In this document: positions 4,977 to 36,259 of the stretch, in pieces
Layout: each line of letters opens with the position of its first letter
Position numbering within the stretch: position 1 is the first letter of the stretch
The notes under the pieces: model-generated
Databases searched by the model: none
Seen by the model: only the letters and a program-made list of their open reading frames with translations
Told to the model about the DNA's origin: nothing
Made by a program: the position numbers and the translations under genes
NCBI RefSeq assembly: GCF_001682385.1
Contig: NZ_CP016210.1
Span: forward strand, 3,100,001-3,164,000
Source: Azoarcus olearius
GTDB lineage: Bacteria > Pseudomonadota > Gammaproteobacteria > Burkholderiales > Rhodocyclaceae
Direction: 5' to 3'
DNA length: 64,000 nt

Positions 4977-5747
4977 ATGAACCGAACCCGCCTCCCGGCG
5001 CGCCCGCCCCGCCGCCGCGGCCCCGCCGCCCTCTCCGCCTTCCTCCGTCCCGCCGCCTTCGCCCGCCTGCCCTTCACGCTGCTGGCTGCAGCGGGCGCGC
5101 TCCTGGCGGGCAACGTCAGCGCCCAGCAACCGGCCGCGCCGGTGACGGCCGCGGTTACCCGCTTTCTCGAACAGGAGGCGCGCGGACTGCCCGGCCGGGT
5201 GGCGGTGTCGGTCACGCCGCTCGATGCCCGCAACCAGTTGCCGCCGTGCATGAGCCTCGTGCCCTTCCTGCCCGCCGGCACCCGCGCCTGGGGACAGATC
5301 AGCGTCGGCGTGCGCTGCGACTCGCCGGTGGAATGGACCGCCTACCTGCAGGCGCGGGTGAGCGTGCTGGGGGAATACCTCGTCACCGCGCAACCGCTGC
5401 GCGCGGGGCAGATCATCGGCCCCGCCGATCTCGTGCGCCGCGACGGCGACCTCGCGACCCTGCCCGACAACACGCTGACCGACGTGGCCCAGGCGAGCGG
5501 CCAATACACGCGGTTCGCGATCGCTCAAGGCAGCCCGCTGCGTGCCGATATGTTGAGGATTCCTCCCGCGGTGAGACAGGGCCAGACGGTGCAGGTCGTC
5601 ACCGTCGGCAGCGGCTTCCGCGTTTCCAGCGAGGGCGTGGCCCTCAACAACGGCGCGCCCGGCGATCCGGTGCGCGTGCGGCTGGGCGGCGGCCAGGTCG
5701 TCACCGGCGCGGCGCGCGCCGGCGGCGTGGTCGAAGTTACGCCTTGA
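4977..5747 (+). CDS. flgA: Flagellar P-ring assembly chaperone FlgA
   Basis: A 256-residue exported protein. An Arg/Pro-rich N-terminus precedes a hydrophobic signal segment (about residues 30-48) ending near A-G-N-V-S-A-Q. The C-terminal half contains the SAF-type fold (R-A-G-Q-I-I-G-P-A-D-L-V-R-R-D-G-D). The last segment (R-Q-G-Q-T-V-Q-V-V-T-V-G-S-G-F-R-V-S-S-E-G) is diagnostic of FlgA. FlgA helps FlgI assemble the P-ring in the periplasm. It diverges from flgB across a 252-bp shared regulatory region. Confidence 0.94.
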   Translation: MNRTRLPARPPRRRGPAALSAFLRPAAFARLPFTLLAAAGALLAGNVSAQQPAAPVTAAVTRFLEQEARGLPGRVAVSVTPLDARNQLPPCMSLVPFLPAGTRAWGQISVGVRCDSPVEWTAYLQARVSVLGEYLVTAQPLRAGQIIGPADLVRRDGDLATLPDNTLTDVAQASGQYTRFAIAQGSPLRADMLRIPPAVRQGQTVQVVTVGSGFRVSSEGVALNNGAPGDPVRVRLGGGQVVTGAARAGGVVEVTP

Positions 5748-25921: not shown

Positions 25922-26449
25922 TCACGCCTGCGAGGCAGTGCCTTGGCGATAGCCTTCCGGCAATTCGGCCGGCTTGCTGCGGAACAGCAGACGCGACAAC
26001 TCGGTCAGCGCCTGCTGATACACCTGCCGCTTGAACTCGATCACCGCTTCCAGTGGCACCCAGTATTCGCTCCAGCGCCAGGCATCGAATTCCGGATGCG
26101 TGCTGGCCCGAAGGCAAACGTCGGTATCGCGACCGACGAGGCGGAGCAGATACCAGATCTGCTTCTGCCCGCGATACGTGTTGCGCCACTCCCGCCTGAT
26201 CCAGTGCTTGGGAACGTCGTACCTCAACCAGCCACGCGTGCGACCGAGAATCTTCACGTGCTCGGGACGCAATCCGACTTCTTCGTACAGTTCCCGGTAC
26301 ATGGCCTGCTCCGGCGACTCGCCGTGCTTGATGCCGCCTTGCGGAAACTGCCAGGAATGTTCGCGGATCCGTTTGCCCCAGAACACCTCGTTGCGCGCGT
26401 TCACCAGAATGATGCCGACGTTCGGGCGATAGCCTTCGCGGTCGAGCAT
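25922..26449 (-). CDS. rppH: RNA pyrophosphohydrolase RppH
   Basis: A 175-residue Nudix hydrolase. It starts [17 protein letters not shown]. The Nudix box [20 protein letters not shown] follows, then V-G-L, and W-L-R-Y-D-V-P after it is typical of RppH. It removes pyrophosphate from mRNA 5' ends and so triggers RNase E decay. The divergent proS neighbour is common in Betaproteobacteria. Confidence 0.95.
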
Positions 26450-26602
26450 GATGAACCTTCAGATTTCTTTGACTGTGTCGGATTTTTTCACACTTGCCCG
26501 TGGTTGGAAAGCGCGCCGGGAGGGCGGTTCCGCGCCGCAGCGGCCGTTGGCGCCGGCGGTGCGCTAGAATCGGCGGCTATTTCAACGCAACACCCGGACA
26601 GC

Positions 26603-28348
26603 ATGCGCGCACGTCAATTCTTCATCTCCACCCTCAAGGAAGCCCCCGCGGACGCGGAAGTCGTCAGCCAGAAACTGATGCTCCGCGCGGGCATGATCCG
26701 CAAGGTCGCCGCCGGCATCTACAACTACCTGCCGATGGGCCTGAAGAGCATCCGCAAGGTGGAAAACATCATCCGCGAGGAAATGAACCGCGCCGGCGCG
26801 CTCGAACTCACCATGCCGCTGGTGCAGCCGTCGGAGCTGTGGCAGGAAACCGGCCGCTGGGACAAGATGGGCCCCGAGATGCTGCGTTTCAAGGATCGCC
26901 ACGAGCGCGATTTCGCACTGCAGCCCACCTCCGAGGAAGTCGTCACCGACATCGCCCGCCAGGAGCTGAAGAGCTACCGCCAGCTGCCCAAGAACTTCTA
27001 CCAGATCCAGACCAAGTTCCGCGACGAGCGCCGGCCGCGCTTTGGCGTGATGCGCGGACGTGAATTCACCATGAAGGACGCCTACTCCTTCGACCGCAGC
27101 GCGGAAGCGGCCGGTGAAAGCTACGACGCGATGTATGCCGCCTACAGCCGCATCTTCGATCGCCTCGGCCTCACCTACCGGGCGGTCGCGGCCGACACCG
27201 GCGCCATCGGCGGCGACCGTTCGCACGAATTCCAGGTCATCGCCGACACTGGCGAGGACGCCATCGTCTACTGCCCCGATTCCAGCTACGCGGCCAACAT
27301 CGAACTCGCCGAAGCGCTGTCGCTGCTTCCGGCGCGCGCGGGCGCGTCCGCCCCGCTGGCAAAGACGCCGACGCCGGGCAAGTCGACCTGCGAGGATGTC
27401 GCCGCGCTGCTCAGCGTGCCGCTTGCCACCACGGTGAAATCGCTGGTGCTCGCCACCGACGACGAGGACGAGAGCGGCAAGGTGGTGAAGAGCACCGTGT
27501 GGCTGCTGCTGGTGCGTGGCGACCACGAACTCAACGAAGTGAAGGCAGGGAAGATCGAAGGACTGAAGGCCGGGTTCCGCTTCGCGACCGAGGCGGAAAT
27601 CCTCGACCATTTCGGCTGCAAGCCGGGCTACCTCGGTCCGATCGGCCTCGCCAAACCGGTCAAGGTGATCGCCGACCGCACCGTCGCCAACATGGCCGAC
27701 TTCGTGTGCGGGGCCAACGCCGAGGACTTCCACTACACCGGCGCCAACTGGGGCCGCGACCTGCCGGAACCGGACCTCGTGGCCGACATCCGCAACGTGG
27801 TCGAAGGCGATCCCAGCCCGGACGGCAAGGGCAAGCTGGCGATCCAGCGCGGCATCGAGGTCGGGCATGTGTTCTACCTCGGCACCAAGTACTCGAAGGC
27901 GATGAACGCCACCTTCCTCGACGTCGACGGCAAGCCCAAGCACTTCGAGATGGGCTGCTACGGCATCGGCGTCACCCGCATCCTCGGCGCCGCCATCGAG
28001 CAGAACCACGACGAGCGCGGCATCATCTGGCCCGCCTCCATCGCGCCGTTCGAAGTGGTGATCTGCCCGGTGGGCTGGAGCAAGTCGGAAGCGGTGCGCG
28101 AAGAAGCGCAGAAGCTCTACGACGCGCTCCTGGCTGCGGGTGTCGATGTGATCCTGGACGATCGTGACGAACGTCCCGGGGTCATGTTTGCCGACTGGGA
28201 GCTGATCGGCGTGCCCCACCGCGTGACCATCGGCGACCGTGGCCTGAAGGAAGGCGTCGCCGAGTACCAGGGCCGCCGTGATCCCGAAGCCAGCCGCGTC
28301 GCGGTCGCGGACATCGCGCCGCATTTGATTTCCCGGCTGCGCCCCTGA
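26603..28348 (+). CDS. proS: Prolyl-tRNA synthetase (bacterial type, with editing domain)
   Basis: 581 residues. Class II motifs: motif 1 around [10 protein letters not shown], motif 2 in [17 protein letters not shown], motif 3 in [11 protein letters not shown] YbaK-like INS editing domain of about 180 residues (about 225-405) sits between motifs 2 and 3 and clears Ala-tRNA-Pro. A C-terminal anticodon-binding domain ends the protein. A TAGAAT at 26566 is a likely -10 box. Confidence 0.96.
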
Positions 28349-28373
28349 GCCTGTACGCCGGGAATCGCCCCAC

Positions 28374-29045
28374 ATGCCCCGCGCCCTGCTCCCGCCTCCA
28401 CGGCTGCGCCGGTTTGCCGTGGCGGCCGTACTGGCCGCAGGCTGTGGCGCCGCCTGGGGCGGCGCGCAGCAGTACGAACCGCTCGCCGCCAGCGTGCGCG
28501 CCGCGCTGCACGCCGCGGTAAGCGATGCCCGCGCGCCCGAACTGCCCATTGCGGATGCCGGGGAACGGGCGCAATGGCTGGCGGAGATGTCGCGCCGCCT
28601 GCAGAAGCGTATCCCCGACGCGGACTACCGCACCGAACTGCTTACCAGCATCCACTACGAGGCCACCCGGGCGGGCCTCGACCCGCAGTTGGTGCTTGGC
28701 CTCGTTCAGGTCGAGAGCAACTTCCGCAAGTACGCCATTTCCACCGCCGGCGCCCGCGGCTTCATGCAGGTGATGCCGTTCTGGATCCAGGTGATCGGCC
28801 GTCCGGACGACAACCTCTTTCATCTGCGGACCAACCTGCGCTACGGCTGCACCATCCTGCGCCACTATCTGGACATCGAACGGGGCGACCTCTACCGCGC
28901 GCTGGGGCGCTACAACGGCAGTCTCGGCAAGCCGGAGTACCCGAACCTCGTGCGCACCGCGTGGGAACGCGACTGGTCCTGGAAGCCGGCCCGCCTGACC
29001 ACCGCCGCGGCGGAGCCGGGCCCGCTCCCTTCGCTCAGCCGTTGA
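28374..29045 (+). CDS. Lytic transglycosylase, SLT (Slt70-like) domain
   Basis: 223 residues with an N-terminal signal segment (about 10-30). The SLT domain has catalytic E114 in L-V-Q-V-E-S-N-F-R-K-Y-A-I-S, then G-A-R-G-F-M-Q-V-M-P-F-W and A-L-G-R-Y-N-G-S-L-G. It cleaves glycan strands of peptidoglycan to 1,6-anhydro products. Family 1 is likely, as in MltC or EmtA. It starts 25 bp after proS. Its last 11 bp overlap the end of the convergent bactofilin gene. Confidence 0.92.
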   Translation: MPRALLPPPRLRRFAVAAVLAAGCGAAWGGAQQYEPLAASVRAALHAAVSDARAPELPIADAGERAQWLAEMSRRLQKRIPDADYRTELLTSIHYEATRAGLDPQLVLGLVQVESNFRKYAISTAGARGFMQVMPFWIQVIGRPDDNLFHLRTNLRYGCTILRHYLDIERGDLYRALGRYNGSLGKPEYPNLVRTAWERDWSWKPARLTTAAAEPGPLPSLSR

Positions 29046-29631
29046 CCGCAGTCAGCGGCTTGGGCTCGCTGAACACCGGCTTCTCGTCGCGCAGCACCGC
29101 AGGCTTCTTGCTGTTGCACGACTGCACGTCGCCCGACACTTCGCCACCCGCCTCGATCAGGATCTTGCCGTAACGGATCTTGCCGCTCACCCGGCCCGTA
29201 GCGTGGATGATCAACTGCTCGCGCGCGGTCAGTTCCCCCTCGAAGCTGCCGTGGATTTCCGCGACGTCGATGCAGACGGTGCCCGAAAAAGCGCCGCGCT
29301 CGGCGATGCGGATCACCCGGCTGTCCATCGTGGCTTCGACCCGACCTTCCACCACCAGGGTGTCGCAATCCAGGATCTCGGCACCCTTCAGCTTGACGTC
29401 CGGACCGACGATGAGACTGCTGCCCGCGTGATCGGCGGCCGGACGTTGCGCCTCCTGGGTCTCGTTCTCGGGCACGGTGGGCTCCGCGACCGACGGCGTC
29501 TCCTTGGGAGGCGCCTGTACGCCGGTCGCCTGACCGACCGGACCGCCGTTCAGGCCCGTGCCCGCCGGACGCACGGTGCGCGGCGGCAGGGAATCGGCGT
29601 TCTTGGGAAACAGAGCGGGCTTGTTGAACAT
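29035..29631 (-). CDS. Bactofilin (polymer-forming cytoskeletal protein)
   Basis: 198 residues. A flexible Pro/Ala-rich N-terminus (about 1-68) precedes the bactofilin beta-helix (about 70-175) with its repeating pattern: L-I-V-G-P-D-V-K-L-K-G, L-V-V-E-G-R-V-E-A-T, G-S-F-E-G-E-L-T-A, L-I-I-H-A-T-G-R-V-S-G-K-I. Bactofilins polymerise without nucleotide, often on the membrane, and position peptidoglycan enzymes. GAGGAGAG before the ATG is a good ribosome binding site. A sigma-54 promoter about 55 bp upstream makes it an unusual regulated bactofilin. The gene ends inside the lytic transglycosylase gene. Confidence 0.92.
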   Translation of the reverse strand: MFNKPALFPKNADSLPPRTVRPAGTGLNGGPVGQATGVQAPPKETPSVAEPTVPENETQEAQRPAADHAGSSLIVGPDVKLKGAEILDCDTLVVEGRVEATMDSRVIRIAERGAFSGTVCIDVAEIHGSFEGELTAREQLIIHATGRVSGKIRYGKILIEAGGEVSGDVQSCNSKKPAVLRDEKPVFSEPKPLTAVNG

Positions 29632-29685
29632 GTTCTCTCCTCGAAGTCTGGGAAAGCCGTGAATTGCGGCTTGAGTCCGACTAGG

Positions 29686-29701
29686 GCAAACACCGTGCCA
29701 G
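29686..29701 (-). promoter_or_regulatory. Sigma-54 promoter of the bactofilin gene
   Basis: On the minus strand CTGGCACGGTGTTTGC matches the sigma-54 consensus YTGGCACGRNNNTTGC at every fixed position, with the GG and GC elements 12 bp apart. Transcription should start near 29674, giving a 5' leader of about 43 nt. The divergent operon encodes a sigma-54 activator. Confidence 0.88.
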
Positions 29702-29720
29702 AAAACGCCACTTCTTTATT

Positions 29721-29733
29721 TTTCAATTGCTTG
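29721..29733 (+). promoter_or_regulatory. IHF-like site between UAS and sigma-54 promoter
   Basis: TTTCAATTGCTTG differs at one position from WATCAANNNNTTR and adjoins an A/T-rich tract (TTTATTTTT). It sits between the -24 box and the upstream activator sites, where IHF normally bends sigma-54 promoters. Confidence 0.5.
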
Positions 29734-29743
29734 AACGGCATTT

Positions 29744-29773
29744 CTGAGAAACAGGCTTCAGAACTGAGAAACA
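29744..29773 (+). repeat. Direct repeat CTGAGAAACA, two copies 20 bp apart
   Basis: Copies at 29744-29753 and 29764-29773 are identical over 10 bp and spaced by about two helical turns. They lie between the IHF-like site and the first TGTC-N10-GACG site. Confidence 0.45.
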
Positions 29774-29785
29774 TGCGGCCAAATC

Positions 29786-29803
29786 TGTCGTGAGTACCCG
29801 ACG
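29786..29803. promoter_or_regulatory. GlrR/QseF-type activator site, promoter-proximal
   Basis: TGTC-N10-GACG, one mismatch from the TGTC-N10-GACA sites that GlrR binds upstream of glmY in enterobacteria. The centre is about 120 bp upstream of the predicted bactofilin start. Confidence 0.55.
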
Positions 29804-29850
29804 CCACACCGGCCCGTTCTTTCAAGCTGTTGAAATAACATCGCTTTTTA

Positions 29851-29868
29851 TGTCGCCAGCGAACGACA
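29851..29868. promoter_or_regulatory. GlrR/QseF-type activator site, promoter-distal
   Basis: TGTC-N10-GACA, a perfect match to the enterobacterial GlrR site. The centre is about 185 bp upstream of the predicted bactofilin start and about 114 bp before glrK, so it may also affect the kinase operon. Confidence 0.65.
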
Positions 29869-29973
29869 GCGGAGCGCATCCGGTTGCACTTCCTTACGTG
29901 GCGAGCGCCGCTGCGGCTCGTACACTCGGCTGTCCGTCGCATCCTCGCGGCCCCCGTACCTCCCCACCCGCCG

Positions 29974-31368
29974 ATGCGCCATCCCTCGTTCCGCTTCACC
30001 TTGCTGGCCGGTTTTCTGCTCGTCGCGGGCGTGCTCGGCGCCATCGCCGCGAGCGCTTGGCTGGGCCTCGCCGACTTCGCCGCGCGCACCCGCGCGCAAG
30101 CAACCGAGGCCATCGCGATGTCGGCAGCACTGCAGCAACTGGGCGAGCGGACGATCGATCTGGAGCGCGCGCTGCGTCAATTCCTGGTGCTGCGCGATCC
30201 GGCCTTGCTGGAGCGGATCCAGTCCGCGCGCGCGGAAGCCACCGCAGCGCTCGACCGCCTCGATGCCGCGCACCCGGTGTTGCGAGGCCTCAGCGATGAG
30301 TGGCGGCGGCTCTCCGAACCCTCCGCCCTCGCCCCCGAAACCGTGCTTCCACACAGTGCCAGCGAGGCCGCCGCCGCGCTGCAACGCCTGCGCGAAATCA
30401 ACGCCACGCTCGCGCGCCGTCTCAACGATCTGCTCGAAAGCCAGAAGGCAACCGAACTCGACGCGCTCGACCAGCGCCGCGAGCAGCTGGCCGCCGAACT
30501 TGGCGCGGGTGTCGTGCTGGCGGCCCTGTTCGCGCTGCTGATCGCATGGTGGATCCTGCGACCACTGCGCCAGCTCAGCCACGCGATCGCAGCCTTGGGC
30601 GAGGACCGCTTGGCGGCACGGGTTGCGGTGGGCGGGCCGGCGGATCTGCGTGAACTGGGCACACGGCTGGACTGGTTGCGCCAACGCCTGGCCGACCTCG
30701 AAGCCAACCGCAACCGCGTGCTGCGCCACGTTTCGCACGAGCTGAAGACGCCGCTCGCATCGCTGCGCGAAGGCATCGCACTACTCACCGACGGCGTGCC
30801 CGGCCCGCTCAACGCGGCCCAGCGCGAAGTCACCGGCATCCTCGCAGCCAATGCCCGCAGCCTGCAGGAACGTATCGAACAGTTGCTCGACTACAACGCA
30901 AGCCAGTTCAATGCCGCCCAGCTCAACCGCCGCCCGGTTTCGCTACGCGAGCTGGCCGCCGCGGTCCTCGACGAGCTGCGCCTGCCTGCCGAAAGCAAGG
31001 GGCTGAAGCTGTCCCTCGAAGGCGAAGTGCCGGCGCTGGCTCTGGACGCGGACAAGATGCGTGTCGTGCTCTCCAACCTCATCACCAATGCGATTGCCGT
31101 CAGCCCTGCCGGCGGCGGGATCAGGCTGAGCCTGTCGCAGCAGCGCGACGGCGTCAGCCTCGACTGCACGGACGACGGGCCCGGCGTCGCGCCCGAGGAT
31201 GCGGAGCGCATCTTCGAGCCCTTCGTGCGCGGACCGACCGCCGCGGGCAAGGGCAGCGGCCTGGGCCTCGCCATCGCGCGTGAATTCGTCCGGGCCCATG
31301 GCGGCATCATCGGCTTGCGTCCGGCCTCGCGCGGCGCGTGCTTTCACATCGAGCTGCCTTATGCCTGA
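29974..31368 (+). CDS. glrK: Sensor histidine kinase GlrK/QseE-like
   Basis: 464 residues from the ATG at 29974 (a TTG at 29884 is in frame but adds an unlikely extension). TM1 is at 9-31, a helical periplasmic domain of about 140 residues follows, and TM2 is at 176-195. Then HAMP, HisKA with H255 in R-H-V-S-H-E-L-K-T-P-L-A-S-L, and HATPase with N-box L-I-T-N-A-I and G-S-G-L-G-L-A-I-A. The order kinase, small lipoprotein, sigma-54 regulator is the qseE-qseG-qseF (glrK-yfhG-glrR) operon. It phosphorylates GlrR, probably in response to envelope state. Confidence 0.88.
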   Translation: MRHPSFRFTLLAGFLLVAGVLGAIAASAWLGLADFAARTRAQATEAIAMSAALQQLGERTIDLERALRQFLVLRDPALLERIQSARAEATAALDRLDAAHPVLRGLSDEWRRLSEPSALAPETVLPHSASEAAAALQRLREINATLARRLNDLLESQKATELDALDQRREQLAAELGAGVVLAALFALLIAWWILRPLRQLSHAIAALGEDRLAARVAVGGPADLRELGTRLDWLRQRLADLEANRNRVLRHVSHELKTPLASLREGIALLTDGVPGPLNAAQREVTGILAANARSLQERIEQLLDYNASQFNAAQLNRRPVSLRELAAAVLDELRLPAESKGLKLSLEGEVPALALDADKMRVVLSNLITNAIAVSPAGGGIRLSLSQQRDGVSLDCTDDGPGVAPEDAERIFEPFVRGPTAAGKGSGLGLAIAREFVRAHGGIIGLRPASRGACFHIELPYA

Positions 31369-31933
31369 CCTGCGCCCCATCTGCCTCGCCCTCGTGCTCG
31401 CCCTTGCGCTGCAGGGCTGCGTTACCGCGCCGCCGGCCGAACCGCCACCACCACACCGTGCCGCCCCCAGCGCGGACACCCGTGCGACGCCCGCCCGCGT
31501 GCTGGACTGGTATCACGGACTGGGCGACGTGGATGCGCAGGAACTCGCCCGCTTGCGGCGCCAGTACGCGGACCGCGCGACCGACCCCGAAGTGCAGGCA
31601 CGCCAGGCGCTGCTCGCGCTGCACCCCGCCGCGCCTGCGCTCGCCCGCGCCCGCAGCCTGCTCGAAGGCCTGCTCGCCAACCCGGCGGCGGAGGCGCGCG
31701 AACTCCAGCCGCTCGCACGCGTGTTGCTCGAACAAGTCGCGGAACGGCAGCGGCTCGACGGCCTCGCCCAGCGCCAGCTCCAGCAAGCCGAGCGCAGCAG
31801 CCAGCAACTGCGGGAACTGCAGCAGCTCAATAGCGAGCTGCAGGGCAAGCTCGACGCGCTCAGCGAAATCGAGCGCAGCCTGTCCGGCGGCGCAACGCGG
31901 CCCCCCGTACCGGAACCGGACCGCCCCCGATGA
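31361..31933 (+). CDS. QseG-like outer-membrane lipoprotein
   Basis: 190 residues starting inside the kinase stop region (8-bp overlap). A lipoprotein signal ends in L-A-L-Q-G-C20. The mature part is helical with many Arg/Leu/Ala residues and ends in a coiled coil (Q-Q-L-R-E-L-Q-Q-L-N-S-E-L-Q-G-K-L-D-A-L-S-E-I-E) and a Pro-rich tail. Sequence similarity to QseG is loose, so the assignment rests mostly on position between kinase and regulator. In enterobacteria QseG contacts QseE and tunes its activity. Confidence 0.75.
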   Translation: MPDLRPICLALVLALALQGCVTAPPAEPPPPHRAAPSADTRATPARVLDWYHGLGDVDAQELARLRRQYADRATDPEVQARQALLALHPAAPALARARSLLEGLLANPAAEARELQPLARVLLEQVAERQRLDGLAQRQLQQAERSSQQLRELQQLNSELQGKLDALSEIERSLSGGATRPPVPEPDRPR

Positions 31934-33327
31934 CGCCGACCGAGCACCGCCATCTGCTGGTGGTCGATGACGACCCCGACCTGCTGCGCCTGCTGGCGAT
32001 GCGGCTGCAGGCCAACGGCTATCGCGTCAGCCCGGTGGGCACCGCCGAAGCAGCACTCGCACGTCTTGCGGTGGAACGGGTGGACCTGGTGTTGAGCGAT
32101 GTCCGCCTGCCCGACCGCGACGGCCTGGCTCTGTTCGAAGAGGTACGGCGCCTGTATCCCGCGCTGCCGGTGATCCTGCTCACGGCGCACGGCACCATCC
32201 CGGACGCGATCGATGCGACCTCGCGTGGCGTCGCCGGCTACCTGACCAAGCCCTACGACAGCCAGGACCTGCTGGACAACGTGGAGCGCGCGCTGCATCT
32301 GGCCGCGCCGGCCGGCGATACGGGCAGCGGCACCACCACCGAGGCCTACGCATTCGAAGGCATGCTCAGCCGCAGCACGCGCATGCACGCGCTGTTCGAC
32401 GAAACCCGGCTGGTCGCGGCCTCCGACGCCAGCGTGCTGATCCGCGGCGAGAGCGGCACCGGCAAGGAAGTGCTCGCGCACGCCATCCATGCCGCCAGCC
32501 CGCGCGCCGCGGCGCCCTTCATTGCGGTCAATTGCGGCGCGATCCCGGAAGCGCTGCTCGAATCGGAACTGTTCGGTCACGTCCGCGGCGCCTTCACCGG
32601 CGCGGTGACCAATCGCCGCGGCCTCTTCCAGGCGGCCCATGGCGGCACCTTGTTCCTGGACGAGATCGGCGACATGCCGCTGACGCTGCAGGTGAAACTG
32701 CTGCGCGTGCTGCAGGAGCGCGCGGTCCGCCCCGTGGGCTCGACGCGCAGCGAGCCGATCGACGTCCGCATCGTCTCGGCCACCCACCGCGATCTCGACA
32801 GCGAACTCACCGCCGGCCGGTTTCGTGAAGACCTGTATTACCGGATCAACGTGGTCAACCTCAACCTGCCGACGCTGAGCGAACGGCGCGAGGACATTCC
32901 TCTGCTTGCCGAGCACTTCCTGCGCGAACAGGCGGCGCGCTACGGGAAACCCCTGCGCGGCTTCGCCCCCGGCGCACTGGAAGCGCTGGTCACCGCCAGC
33001 TGGCCGGGCAACATCCGCCAGTTGCAGAACGTGGTGGAACAGACCTGCGCCCTCGCCACCACGCCACTGATTCCGCTCGCGCTGGTCAAACGCGCGCTGC
33101 GCGCAACGCCGCCCGCGGCACTGAGCTATGCCGAGGCCAAGCAGCGTTTCGAACGCGGCTATCTCGTCCAGTTGCTCAAGCTCACCGAGGGCCGCGTTGC
33201 CGATGCTGCCCGCCTGGCGCAACGCAACCGCACCGAGTTCTACCGCCTCATCCAGCGCCACGGCCTGGATCCGGCGCTGTTCCGCGGCCCCGCATCGCCG
33301 CGCGAATCCGCTGACGACGGCGCTTGA
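31930..33327 (+). CDS. glrR: Sigma-54-dependent response regulator GlrR/QseF-like
   Basis: 465 residues, overlapping the lipoprotein gene by 4 bp. The receiver has D57 in V-L-S-D-V-R-L-P. The AAA+ domain has Walker A G-E-S-G-T-G-K-E (173-180), the sigma-54 loop G-A-F-T-G-A (220-225) and Walker B L-F-L-D-E-I-G-D (241-248). A Fis-like helix-turn-helix lies at the C-terminus ([19 protein letters not shown]). The intact GAFTGA loop means it should activate sigma-54 promoters, and the one at 29686-29701 is the obvious candidate. Confidence 0.92.
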
Positions 33328-33359
33328 CCCACCGCGCCGAGGAGGAGGAAACTCGGCGC

Positions 33360-34463
33360 ATGACTGTACAAAAACACAGCCCTCTCAACAGTGCCGTCGC
33401 TGCCGGGCCACGCGGCCGCGGCAGCGCCGTGCGCCCGGACGGCCGCTTTCTCCAGTGGCAGCGCGAGGGTTTCGACGACGGCTGGCCCACCGCGGGCGAC
33501 GAGGACGACACCCGGCTCGCCACCGAATTGCGGATCGACAGCGCCAAGACCGTCATCACCTACAACCAGTCGCCGGACATTCCCTTCGACCGTTCGATCA
33601 ACCCCTATCGCGGTTGCGAACACGGCTGCGTGTATTGCTTTGCGCGCCCGAGCCACGCCTACCTCGACCTCTCTCCCGGGCTCGATTTCGAGACCAAGCT
33701 GTTCTGGAAGCCCGATGCAGCCACGGTGTTGCGACGCGAACTGGCAAACCCCCGCTACCGCTGCGCGACCATCGCGCTGGGGGTGAATACCGACGCCTGG
33801 CAGCCCGTGGAACGTCACACCGGGCTGACCCGGCAGATCCTGCAGGTGCTGGCCGAAACCCGCCACCCGGTCAGTCTCATCACCAAGTCGTCCTTGATCG
33901 AGCGCGATCTCGACCTGCTGGCCGATCTGGCGCGCGATGATCTGGTCCAGGTCATGCTGTCGATCACCACGCTCGACGACGACCTGGCGCGAGTGCTGGA
34001 GCCTCGCGCAGCCCGGCCGGCGCGGCGGCTGGAAACCCTGAGCCGGCTGCGCGCCGCCGGCGTGCCGGTCGGCGTGCTGTGCGCGCCGCTGATACCCGCC
34101 TTGAATGATCACGAACTGGAAGCGGTGCTCACCGCGGCGCATGCTGCGGGCGCGGATACCGCCGGCTATGTGGTGCTGCGCCTGCCACACGAACTGCGCC
34201 AGATCTTTACCGACTGGCTGGCACGCCACCGGCCCGACCGCGCCGCCCACGTCATGAGCCTGGTGGAGCAACTGCGCGGCGGGCGCAGCTACGACAGCCG
34301 CTTCGGCCACCGCATGCGCGGCACCGGCGTCATCGCGGACCTCTACAGCCAGCGCCTGCGGCGCATCTGCCGCCGGCTGGGCTTGAACGAGTCCCGGCGC
34401 ACGCTCAACACCGCGGCGTTCCGCCCGCCGGCCGCGGACACGCCTCAGCTGTCGCTGTTCTGA
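33360..34463 (+). CDS. Radical SAM protein, PA0069 / SPL-like family
   Basis: 367 residues from the ATG at 33360, 14 bp after a GGAGGAGGAAA stretch. The radical SAM Cys motif is C-E-H-G-C-V-Y-C in N-P-Y-R-G-C-E-H-G. D-I-P-F-D-R-S-I-N-P-Y-R-G before it and L-I-T-K-S-S-L-I-E-R-D later are typical of the PA0069 family, related to spore photoproduct lyase. Cluster binding and SAM cleavage are expected. The physiological substrate is unknown. It follows glrR by 32 bp, but no functional link is evident. Confidence 0.88.
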   Translation: MTVQKHSPLNSAVAAGPRGRGSAVRPDGRFLQWQREGFDDGWPTAGDEDDTRLATELRIDSAKTVITYNQSPDIPFDRSINPYRGCEHGCVYCFARPSHAYLDLSPGLDFETKLFWKPDAATVLRRELANPRYRCATIALGVNTDAWQPVERHTGLTRQILQVLAETRHPVSLITKSSLIERDLDLLADLARDDLVQVMLSITTLDDDLARVLEPRAARPARRLETLSRLRAAGVPVGVLCAPLIPALNDHELEAVLTAAHAAGADTAGYVVLRLPHELRQIFTDWLARHRPDRAAHVMSLVEQLRGGRSYDSRFGHRMRGTGVIADLYSQRLRRICRRLGLNESRRTLNTAAFRPPAADTPQLSLF

Positions 34464-34482
34464 AGGCCGGCGCGCTGCGGCG

Positions 34483-35607
34483 TCAAACGATGACGCCCCC
34501 GCCCAGGCAGACCTTGGACTCGTACACCACCACGCTCTGTCCCGGGGTCAGCGCCCATTGCGGGGTGGCAAACGCGATCTCCGCGCGGCCTTCGCCCAGC
34601 GCGTCGATTTCGCATGGCATGTCGGCGGTGCGGTAGCGCGGCTTTGCGGTGTATACCCAGTGGGTGCGCGGGTCGCGCCCGGCGATCCAGTTGAGATCGG
34701 TGGCGAGCAGACGGTCCTTCAGCAGTGCGGGGTGGTCGTGCCCCTGCACGACGTAAAGCACATTGGCCTTCACGTCCTTCTTTGCGACGTACCAGGCCTC
34801 GTGCTCGCCCGCCTCGTCCTGGTTGCCCTTGATGCCGCCGATGTGCAGACCCTTGCGCTGGCCGATGGTGTGGTACATCAGCCCCTGGTGCTCGCCGAGC
34901 ACACGGTCGTCGTCCAGGCAGCGGATCTCGCCCGGCTTGGTCGGCAGGTAGCGCATCAGGAACTCGCGGAACGGACGCTCGCCGATGAAGCAGATGCCGG
35001 TCGAATCCTTCTTGGTCGCCACGTGCAACCCGGCCGCCTCGGCGATCTTGCGCACTTCGCGCTTGTACAGGCCACCCAGCGGGAACAGCGTCTTGGCGAG
35101 CTGGGCCTGGTTCAGCCGGTACAGGAAATAGCTCTGGTCCTTGGTGCCATCCTCGGCCTTCAGCAGCTGGAATTCGCTGCGGCCGTCATTGATCCATTCG
35201 CGCACCTGGGCGTAATGGCCGGTGGCGATGCGCTCGGCGCCGAGCTGCATCGCGTGGTCGAGGAAGCAGCGGAACTTGATCTCTGAATTGCACAGGATGT
35301 CCGGGTTGGGCGTGCGGCCGGCCTCGTATTCGCGCAGGAAGTCGGCGAACACGCGGTCCTTGTATTCGACACTGAAGTTCACCACTTCCAGGTCGATGCC
35401 GATCACGTCGCACACCGAGGCAACATCGACCAGATCCTGCCGCGTCGAGCAGTACTCGTCGTCGTCGTCGTCCTCCCAGTTCTTCATGAACAGGCCGGTG
35501 ACCTCGTAGCCCTGCTGCTTGAGCAGCAGCGCGGTCACCGACGAATCGACGCCGCCGGACATGCCGACGACCACCTTCATCCCTTGCGGGTCTTGCTTAC
35601 TGGACAT
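34483..35607 (-). CDS. mnmA: tRNA-specific 2-thiouridylase MnmA
   Basis: 374 residues from the ATG ending at 35607, chosen because GGAGAAGG lies 7 bp upstream; starts at 35622 and 35580 are possible. The PP-loop is [13 protein letters not shown]. Catalytic Cys lie in N-P-D-I-L-C-N and [10 protein letters not shown]. It makes 2-thiouridine at the wobble position of Glu, Gln and Lys tRNAs. The start overlaps the upstream secreted-protein gene by 11 bp. Confidence 0.95.
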
Positions 35608-36259
35608 TCGGTCCTTCTCCATCTAGCCAGTCCGCGAGCGGCAGCACCACGGCCGGCTCGCCATTGTCGACGAACCAGCTGTCGACGACATAGCGGCGCG
35701 CCAGCGAGGTCGCAGCCGCGTCCGCAAGCGGCGCCTGCGCGTCGCACGCGCAATCCTCGCCGGCCTCCGAATGGGTCACAGCGGGCGCCCCGCCGGAAGC
35801 CGACATCTCAAGTTCTTCGATCACCGCCGAATAATGCTGGAAAAAGCGTCCGCGCCGCTCGCGCTCGAGCACCCGGTGAAAGCGCAGCGCCCCTCTCGAT
35901 TCAAGCAACTGCAACAGCCGCGTGGTGGAGGTCGAGTGATCGATGCAGTCCATCCGCCCGCTTCCCTCCTCGTCGGCAAAATTCCCGCCGCGATCGGCGG
36001 CCACCACGGTCTGCTCGCCCGCCACCCGGTACAGGCCACCGATCGCGCCGGCGAGGATGGCGCGTTCCGCGGCCGCAGAATCCGCGCCCTGCAGGCGATG
36101 CACGACGGCCTGCAGCAGCTCACTGTCGTAGTGCACCACGGATTCGGCCGCGCATCCGTAGCCGTGGCAGATGCTGACCCACGCTTCCTGCGCAGCCGCT
36201 TCGCCGCCCCACGCCAGCAGGACGCAGCAGGCGGCCATCCAGGCGAGGGCGCGACTCAT
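35597..36259 (-). CDS. Uncharacterised secreted protein with a Cys-His-Asp triad pattern
   Basis: 220 residues with a signal peptide ([17 protein letters not shown], cleaved near A-A-A-Q-E). I do not recognise a named family. Conserved-looking segments: C105 in G-R-M-D-C-I-D-H-S, a helix [15 protein letters not shown]142 in F-F-Q-H-Y-S-A-V-I and D193/D198 in [13 protein letters not shown]. The order and spacing resemble transglutaminase-like cysteine peptidases. That is inference and has no search behind it. A C-A-C-D pair near 150 is also present. It lies between nudJ and mnmA, overlapping both. Confidence 0.7.

Follow-up and report, generated by a model that had tools for sequence, protein, structure and literature searches.

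The stretch of Azoarcus olearius DNA analysed here (64,000 nucleotides, hereafter the window) belongs to a genome assembled as a single contig of 4.45 Mb. On its minus strand, a gene at 29035-29631 codes for a 198-residue bactofilin, the predicted GlrR target of this study, with a PF04519 domain scoring 63.3 bits (E-value 2.6e-17), above the Pfam cut-off of 27.9. The N-terminus of the protein, MFNKP, is similar to MFSKKKK, the bactofilin membrane-targeting consensus given in the available part of PMC12448750, and is compatible with membrane binding. According to the same excerpt, BacA of Caulobacter resembles the window protein in its bactofilin domain and in an N-terminus of the form MF.K, as in the membrane-targeting peptide. 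A gene for an SLT lytic transglycosylase-like protein (28374-29045) converges on the bactofilin gene and slightly overlaps its 3' end; an SLT-domain gene adjoins the bactofilin gene in locus L031 as well.

Divergent from the bactofilin gene, three genes with overlapping frames on the plus strand form a predicted operon. The first codes for a GlrK-like sensor kinase (29974-31368), for which Pfam detects HAMP, HisKA and HATPase domains on the open frame from 29884. The second (31361-31933) codes for a QseG-like lipoprotein with the lipobox LALQGC, whose sole Pfam match, to the YfhG (=QseG) lipoprotein family PF13942, is weak (E-value 2.9e-4, 21.3 bits, below the cut-off of 27). By eye, its C-terminal motif KLDALSEIERSL is similar to the enterobacterial KLENLTDIERQLSS; an NCBIfam search with the lipoprotein returned no match, and an hmmsearch of three enterobacterial loci no hit. 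The third gene, glrR (31930-33327), codes for a response regulator with a receiver domain, a sigma-54 AAA+ domain and a DNA-binding helix. Its top NCBIfam model is PRK15115 GlrR, at 604 bits versus 414 for the next model, with the model cut-off of 763 not reached, and it is 56% identical to enterobacterial GlrR (loci L064, L066 and L073). The receiver keeps the VVDDDPD motif, the phospho-acceptor Asp in DVRLPD and the acidic pocket, and the recognition helix is nearly identical to the enterobacterial RNRTEFYKLL. The initial annotation of this DNA had described a divergent operon for GlrK-, QseG- and GlrR-like proteins, with an intact GAFTGA loop in GlrR. The loop is indeed present, and the kinase domains, the overlapping frames and the top GlrR model agree with that description; the QseG and GlrR assignments remain below the family cut-offs. 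The gene that follows glrR in the window (33324-34463) differs from the BON-domain gene found at that place in relatives.

Inspection of the gap between the bactofilin gene and glrK revealed a near-perfect sigma-54 promoter aimed at the bactofilin gene (CTGGCACGGTGTTTGCC, 29701-29685, minus strand). It matches every position of YTGGCACGrNNNTTGCW, which we take to be the sigma-54 promoter consensus and used for scoring, except the last W, which is a C at 29685. As deduced from the -12 position, transcription would start at about 29674, giving a predicted leader of approximately 43 nt that contains a Shine-Dalgarno-like GAGGAG ahead of the ATG. Read on the minus strand from glrK to the bactofilin gene, the order is distal GlrR-type site, IHF-like sequence, proximal GlrR-type site, IHF-like sequence, sigma-54 promoter and leader. 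The promoter-proximal IHF-like site (TTTCAATTGCTTG, 29721-29733, best on the plus strand) and the one between the two GlrR-type sites (TTTCAACAGCTTG, 29835-29823, minus strand) each deviate at one position from the IHF consensus WATCARNNNNTTR. The proximal GlrR/QseF-type site, TGTC-N10-GACG (29786-29803; CGTCGGGTACTCACGACA on the minus strand, 29803-29786), has one mismatch, and the distal one, TGTC-N10-GACA (29851-29868; TGTCGTTCGCTGGCGACA on the minus strand, 29868-29851), is perfect. Their starts are 65 bp apart, and about 105 bp separate the distal site from the start of glrK. The initial annotation had placed a promoter with all fixed positions matched at 29686-29701, one IHF-like site and both GlrR-type sites exactly where we find them; the IHF-like site at 29835-29823 is an addition to its list. 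It had also likened the two sites to those of glmY in enterobacteria, which is borne out by the published GlrR/QseF consensus TGTCN10GACA (PMC8745638, available part); the portion available of PMC6075780 gives TGTN12ACA, with help from IHF. A consensus scan of 29400-30100 found no sigma-70 promoter or terminator, and an Rfam search of 26000-36000 found neither GlmY nor GlmZ. The sole Rfam match in that interval, to a NiCo riboswitch (35476-35564, antisense to an mnmA-like gene at 35622-34483), is below threshold (27.1 bits versus a gathering score of 37) and was judged to be a chance match.

Searches of the whole genome gave the chance level of these patterns. TGTC-N10-GACA alone occurs at 51 places, versus 29 for the reversed pattern, and a single site combined with a promoter at 11 places versus 7 in the control. 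Such sites are therefore common, and single ones prove nothing. The two sites together with a sigma-54 promoter have one match in 4.45 Mb, the bactofilin-glrK gap, and none with the reversed pattern. With the module score defined as the promoter score minus twice the number of site mismatches, for sites 62-70 bp apart and with weights set by us from the consensus, the window module reaches 15.1, versus at most 1.9 in 40 shuffles of the bactofilin upstream region. The second bactofilin gene of this genome (C1:2445044) has one single-mismatch site only within 3.3 kb. Among 61 genomes, the double-site and promoter search yielded 21 places in 17 genomes, of which eight are upstream of a full bactofilin and one upstream of a truncated bactofilin-like frame (best blastp to intact N-termini, 9e-7), and none in reversed controls; in the wider order, 30 genomes out of 300 gave a hit with the double-site pattern and the controls gave none. 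In genome G021, a module (L036:4932-4948) precedes a 92-aa frame resembling a bactofilin N-terminus only, and no bactofilin of the window type was found in that genome.

Conservation was assessed in a family sample of 199 genomes, the window genome included, with orthologs collected at E-values up to 1e-120 for GlrR and up to 1e-25 for bactofilins of the window type. GlrR was found in 98 genomes and the bactofilin in 94: 80 genomes have both, 18 GlrR only, 14 the bactofilin only and 87 neither, which corresponds to a Fisher odds ratio of 27.6, uncorrected for kinship. The module score was computed over 890 bp upstream of the bactofilin core, or over 870 bp around the hit start for eight unlinked or GlrR-negative rows. 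Of the 56 bactofilin genes with a linked glrR locus, 46 score at least 11 and 52 at least 9. The corresponding numbers are 15 and 18 of 22 for bactofilin genes in GlrR-positive genomes that are unlinked, meaning that gene and glrR locus lie on separate contigs or that the gene lies beyond the fetched locus on one contig (at a distance of about 10 kb in G100). Only 1 of 13 bactofilin genes in genomes scored GlrR-negative has the module. The unlinked GlrR-positive and the GlrR-negative groups differ with a Fisher p of 0.001, again uncorrected for kinship, and dinucleotide shuffles of the upstream regions never reached 9 (0/1140, 0/320 and 0/220, 0/1680 in total). These counts represent related genomes rather than independent events, and GlrR-negative genomes are few. 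At the genus level, before the eight additional rows were included, the promoter and both sites are kept in 22 of 27 genera with the gene pair versus 1 of 8 GlrR-negative genera, in keeping with the conservation expected from the initial annotation. The linked group comprises 57 rows for 56 genes (L206 and L277 represent the same gene of G138), and the linked gene L180 (G069), with an unrecognised motif, is outside the count, having scored 11.4 in an earlier scoring. In all, 77 of the 80 genomes with both genes were counted as linked or unlinked, G069, G140 and G186 being left out.

Ten of the 56 linked genes score below 11. L034 reaches 9.4, and L037 has one perfect site and a promoter score of 16.9. 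Five belong to genus g77 (scores of 9.6-9.9), where the distal site is kept with 0-1 mismatch, the proximal site is degenerate and the promoter ends in TTGAT. The last three are from genus g88 (G138, G172 and G090), in which a glycine-zipper gene of like orientation lies upstream of the bactofilin gene. The seven of 22 unlinked genes below 11 are L282 (10.3), L284, L285, L288 (9.6), L290, L295 and L299 (9.3).

Among the GlrR-negative genomes, a module is present in G115 alone, which has a completeness of 86% and shares its genus with the GlrR-positive G049. We rechecked the 13 GlrR-negative genomes together with G003: the best match has 348 bits versus at least 418 for orthologs, and identity does not exceed 48% in near-full-length matches but goes up to 54% in short matches to the AAA domain. 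G082, scored GlrR-negative and devoid of the module, has a GlrR fragment of 258 aa (64%) at a contig edge. In G003 the module is present, and no more than about 400 bp of the contig lie beyond glrK, which would be too few to reach the start of glrR; its missing glrR is therefore probably an assembly gap. In the bactofilin tree, which is built from few columns and has many weak forks, 11 GlrR-negative rows are scattered in several places among GlrR-positive ones, with five label changes, at least three of them forced by well-supported branches. The sites have thus probably been lost more than once. As evidenced from these analyses, the bactofilin-glrK gap holds a real, conserved regulatory module, and its sites follow the regulator rather than gene order: they are mostly present with GlrR and nearly always absent without it.

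The geometry of the module was analysed for 41 modules from 43 rows read, nine further rows having been dropped through a narrow motif. The two sites are 65-69 bp apart in relatives, and the promoter-to-site gap is 63-65, 71-76 or 83-86 bp, with none between; further gaps are 50-51, 62, 94 and 105 bp at unlinked genes and 66 bp at one linked gene. When each genus and cluster contributes a single value (n=25), phasing at 10.5 bp gives R = 0.82, and none of 20,000 uniform random sets was as high. Well-conserved sites read TGTCGCC-N4-GGCGACA. In most loci with a recognised start the promoter is 35-69 nt from the ATG, a range based on guessed start codons and missing several loci. IHF-like sequences with at most one mismatch are found in the promoter-proximal spacer of 16 of 36 loci, versus approximately 9% of mononucleotide shuffles, and in the inter-site spacer of 11 of 36, versus approximately 5% (8 of 52 rows were dropped through the narrow motif).

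Enterobacterial loci provide a known counterpart. Rfam detects GlmY upstream of glrK in L064, L066 and L073. In L073, two sites 63 bp apart are followed by a sigma-54 promoter at 5593 and by GlmY from 5621; in L066, two perfect sites, also 63 bp apart, are followed after a gap of 105 by a weaker promoter at 5065 (score of 14.7) and by GlmY from 5095. L064, with GlmY, has no module above the thresholds used. Consensus sites, IHF and sigma-54 have been described for glmY (PMC6075780 and PMC8745638, available parts). The E. coli QseE-QseG-QseF system (GlrK-QseG-GlrR), which controls glmY and rpoE, has the same three components as the window, and its glmY shares with the window the site consensus, the sigma-54 promoter, a target that adjoins the operon and IHF, the window having IHF-like sequences only (PMC6075780, available part). 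In E. coli, however, the target is a small RNA gene located upstream in the same direction, preceded by three reported sites in the part of that article at hand, whereas the window has two sites, and its predicted target is a cytoskeletal gene that encodes a protein and diverges from glrK. The glmY-qseEGF locus of Proteus mirabilis has the TGTCN10GACA consensus in common with the window and has a sigma-54 promoter along with putative sites for IHF (two) and QseF (three); its glmY is co-transcribed with qseEGF, in contrast with the window bactofilin gene, which is transcribed away from glrK (PMC8745638, available part). Regulators of the QseF/GlrR type are mentioned broadly in PMC3162934 and PMC8895600, in the latter also for beta-proteobacteria, with no bactofilin target in the excerpts available. 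The initial annotation knew of no GlrR-controlled bactofilin; likewise, the open-licence literature that we searched yielded no such link, no paper naming both, and no case of a bactofilin, such as Caulobacter BacA, controlled by GlrR or sigma-54. A GlrR-controlled bactofilin would be a new target for a circuit of known type, in a new arrangement.

In two genera, a GlrR homologue is encoded head to head with the bactofilin. In genus g81, its phospho-acceptor region is lost (L196, L219 and L223, by eye), the Pfam receiver scores being 47.9, 39.4 and 24.0 bits, respectively, versus 95 in the window GlrR; no glrK was found beside these bactofilin-linked genes, and L231 has the same gene order. 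In genus g91 (L279-L281), the protein has no Pfam receiver domain and reads GAFSGA, and there is no glrK between its gene and that of the bactofilin in the approximately 2.2 kb fetched. Over the matched part, these activators are 56-66% identical to the window GlrR, L281 aside, which is at 63%. The bactofilin module is kept in both genera, which argues for a direct link between GlrR and the bactofilin. It also suggests phosphorylation-independent activation by GlrR in g81 and g91.

The module is not restricted to bactofilin genes. A double module scoring at least 11 is present somewhere in 82 of 101 glrR loci read, versus 0 of 101 reversed sequences. Of 29 loci with a BON-domain gene downstream of glrR, 21 have the module at this gene; for a glycine-zipper gene at that place, the count is 23 of 29. 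BON-domain genes with their own sigma-54 promoter and double sites are found for instance in L154, L157, L159, L160 and L187-L190. Sites and promoter precede BON-like genes in Herbaspirillum, Janthinobacterium, Duganella and Chitinimonas, an OpgH-like glycosyltransferase gene in Variovorax and Pseudacidovorax, and MdoG/OpgG in Rubrivivax. Pfam assignments were made on examples: BON for L052 and L061, GT2 for L053 (presumably OpgH), MdoG for L060, EF-hand for L038 and L065, and glycine zipper for L040. Periplasmic-glucan genes (OpgH-like or MdoG/OpgG) with the module adjoin glrR in L053, L058, L060, L321 and L322. By blastp to seeds, 27 further loci of the wider order comprise seven BON, three bactofilin (one of which, L329, is the G088 gene already in the family counts), two OpgH, two glycine-zipper, two EF-hand and 11 other genes. 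Outside betaproteobacteria, several GlrR loci, e.g., in Halomonas and Neptuniibacter, have no module in the fetched flanks. In L324, L325 and L330, double sites and a sigma-54 promoter lie upstream of large genes, presumably akin to cyanophycin synthetase genes, and the short flanks fetched contain no glrR; in G035 (L131 and L148), two further double-site modules precede a glycosyltransferase-like and a LuxR-like gene, respectively, as judged by eye. The GlrR output gene thus differs between lineages, comprising GlmY, bactofilin, BON-domain, glycine-zipper, EF-hand and periplasmic-glucan genes, a pattern that we did not find described in the literature searched. The suggestion of the initial annotation that the circuit is self-contained holds for the window genome by the strict pattern. 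It does not extend to many relatives, in which a second predicted GlrR target, e.g., the BON-domain gene, lies by the operon. Similarly, its proposal of a bactofilin rather than a small RNA as the target is supported in the window on sequence grounds and is now widened, the bactofilin being one of several predicted GlrR outputs.

Taken together, the conserved and phased module, its tracking of glrR, the GlrR recognition helix and the GlmY controls indicate that GlrR and sigma-54 most probably activate the bactofilin gene. We give a probability of roughly 0.88 to the bactofilin gene being controlled directly by the GlrK-QseG-GlrR system encoded next to it. GlrK, together with the lipoprotein QseG, would sense an envelope cue, leading to phosphorylated GlrR, which would bind the two sites approximately six helical turns apart; IHF may bend the DNA, so that looped GlrR could open the sigma-54 promoter. 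Transcription from the predicted start would yield more bactofilin, presumed to polymerise into a membrane-bound scaffold with a possible role in guiding the synthesis or hydrolysis of the wall. The initial annotation likewise proposed that envelope sensing may be linked in this way to cell shape or peptidoglycan hydrolysis.

Because each of these genomes encodes many paralogous sigma-54 activators, with at least 41 matches in the window genome, another activator could use the same sites, the proximity of glrR being incidental. We regard this as very unlikely: the sites mostly accompany GlrR, whether or not the genes are linked, and are hardly ever found elsewhere, the recognition helix of the window GlrR is nearly identical to the enterobacterial one, and the kinase-free activators head to head with the bactofilin are GlrR copies. 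It is quite improbable that the sites mainly serve autoregulation of glrK-qseG-glrR, with the bactofilin promoter secondary. Despite the short distance between the distal site and glrK, the high-scoring promoter faces the bactofilin gene, the best plus-strand score in 29365-30189 (14.5) lies within glrK, and the module is kept at unlinked bactofilins.

The enterobacterial arrangement, in which the module precedes GlmY, could also mean that the promoter makes a GlmY-like small RNA and that the bactofilin gene is downstream by accident. This is very improbable in view of the short leader with its GAGGAG, the similar promoter-to-ATG distances in other loci, the outcome of the Rfam search and the fact that the module accompanies the bactofilin to unlinked places. 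As for chance matches to short consensus patterns, single sites are common and, with a promoter, occur near control level, but the double module has a single occurrence in the genome and none in controls, and it is conserved and helically phased; the conservation counts refute this explanation, whose probability is practically negligible.

We therefore favour direct activation of the bactofilin gene by GlrR. More broadly, we consider it likely that GlrK-QseG-GlrR is a portable envelope-sensing sigma-54 switch, with a fixed double-site architecture and a neighbouring output exchanged in evolution. This output would be GlmY in enterobacteria and the bactofilin in Rhodocyclaceae and a small number of other families; elsewhere, BON-domain, glycine-zipper, EF-hand or periplasmic-glucan genes would take its place. 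The bactofilin of two genera would have retained a private GlrR copy that is no longer under phosphorylation control.

If this is true, a poorly understood envelope-sensing system would be tied directly to a cytoskeletal scaffold, the bactofilin would gain inducible control, and there would be a hint at the role of GlrR in bacteria that do not use GlmY. Changing outputs under one conserved module would make a clear case for regulators that keep their wiring while their targets change. The protein outputs identified are envelope or probable envelope proteins, which may give a clue to the signal perceived by GlrK.
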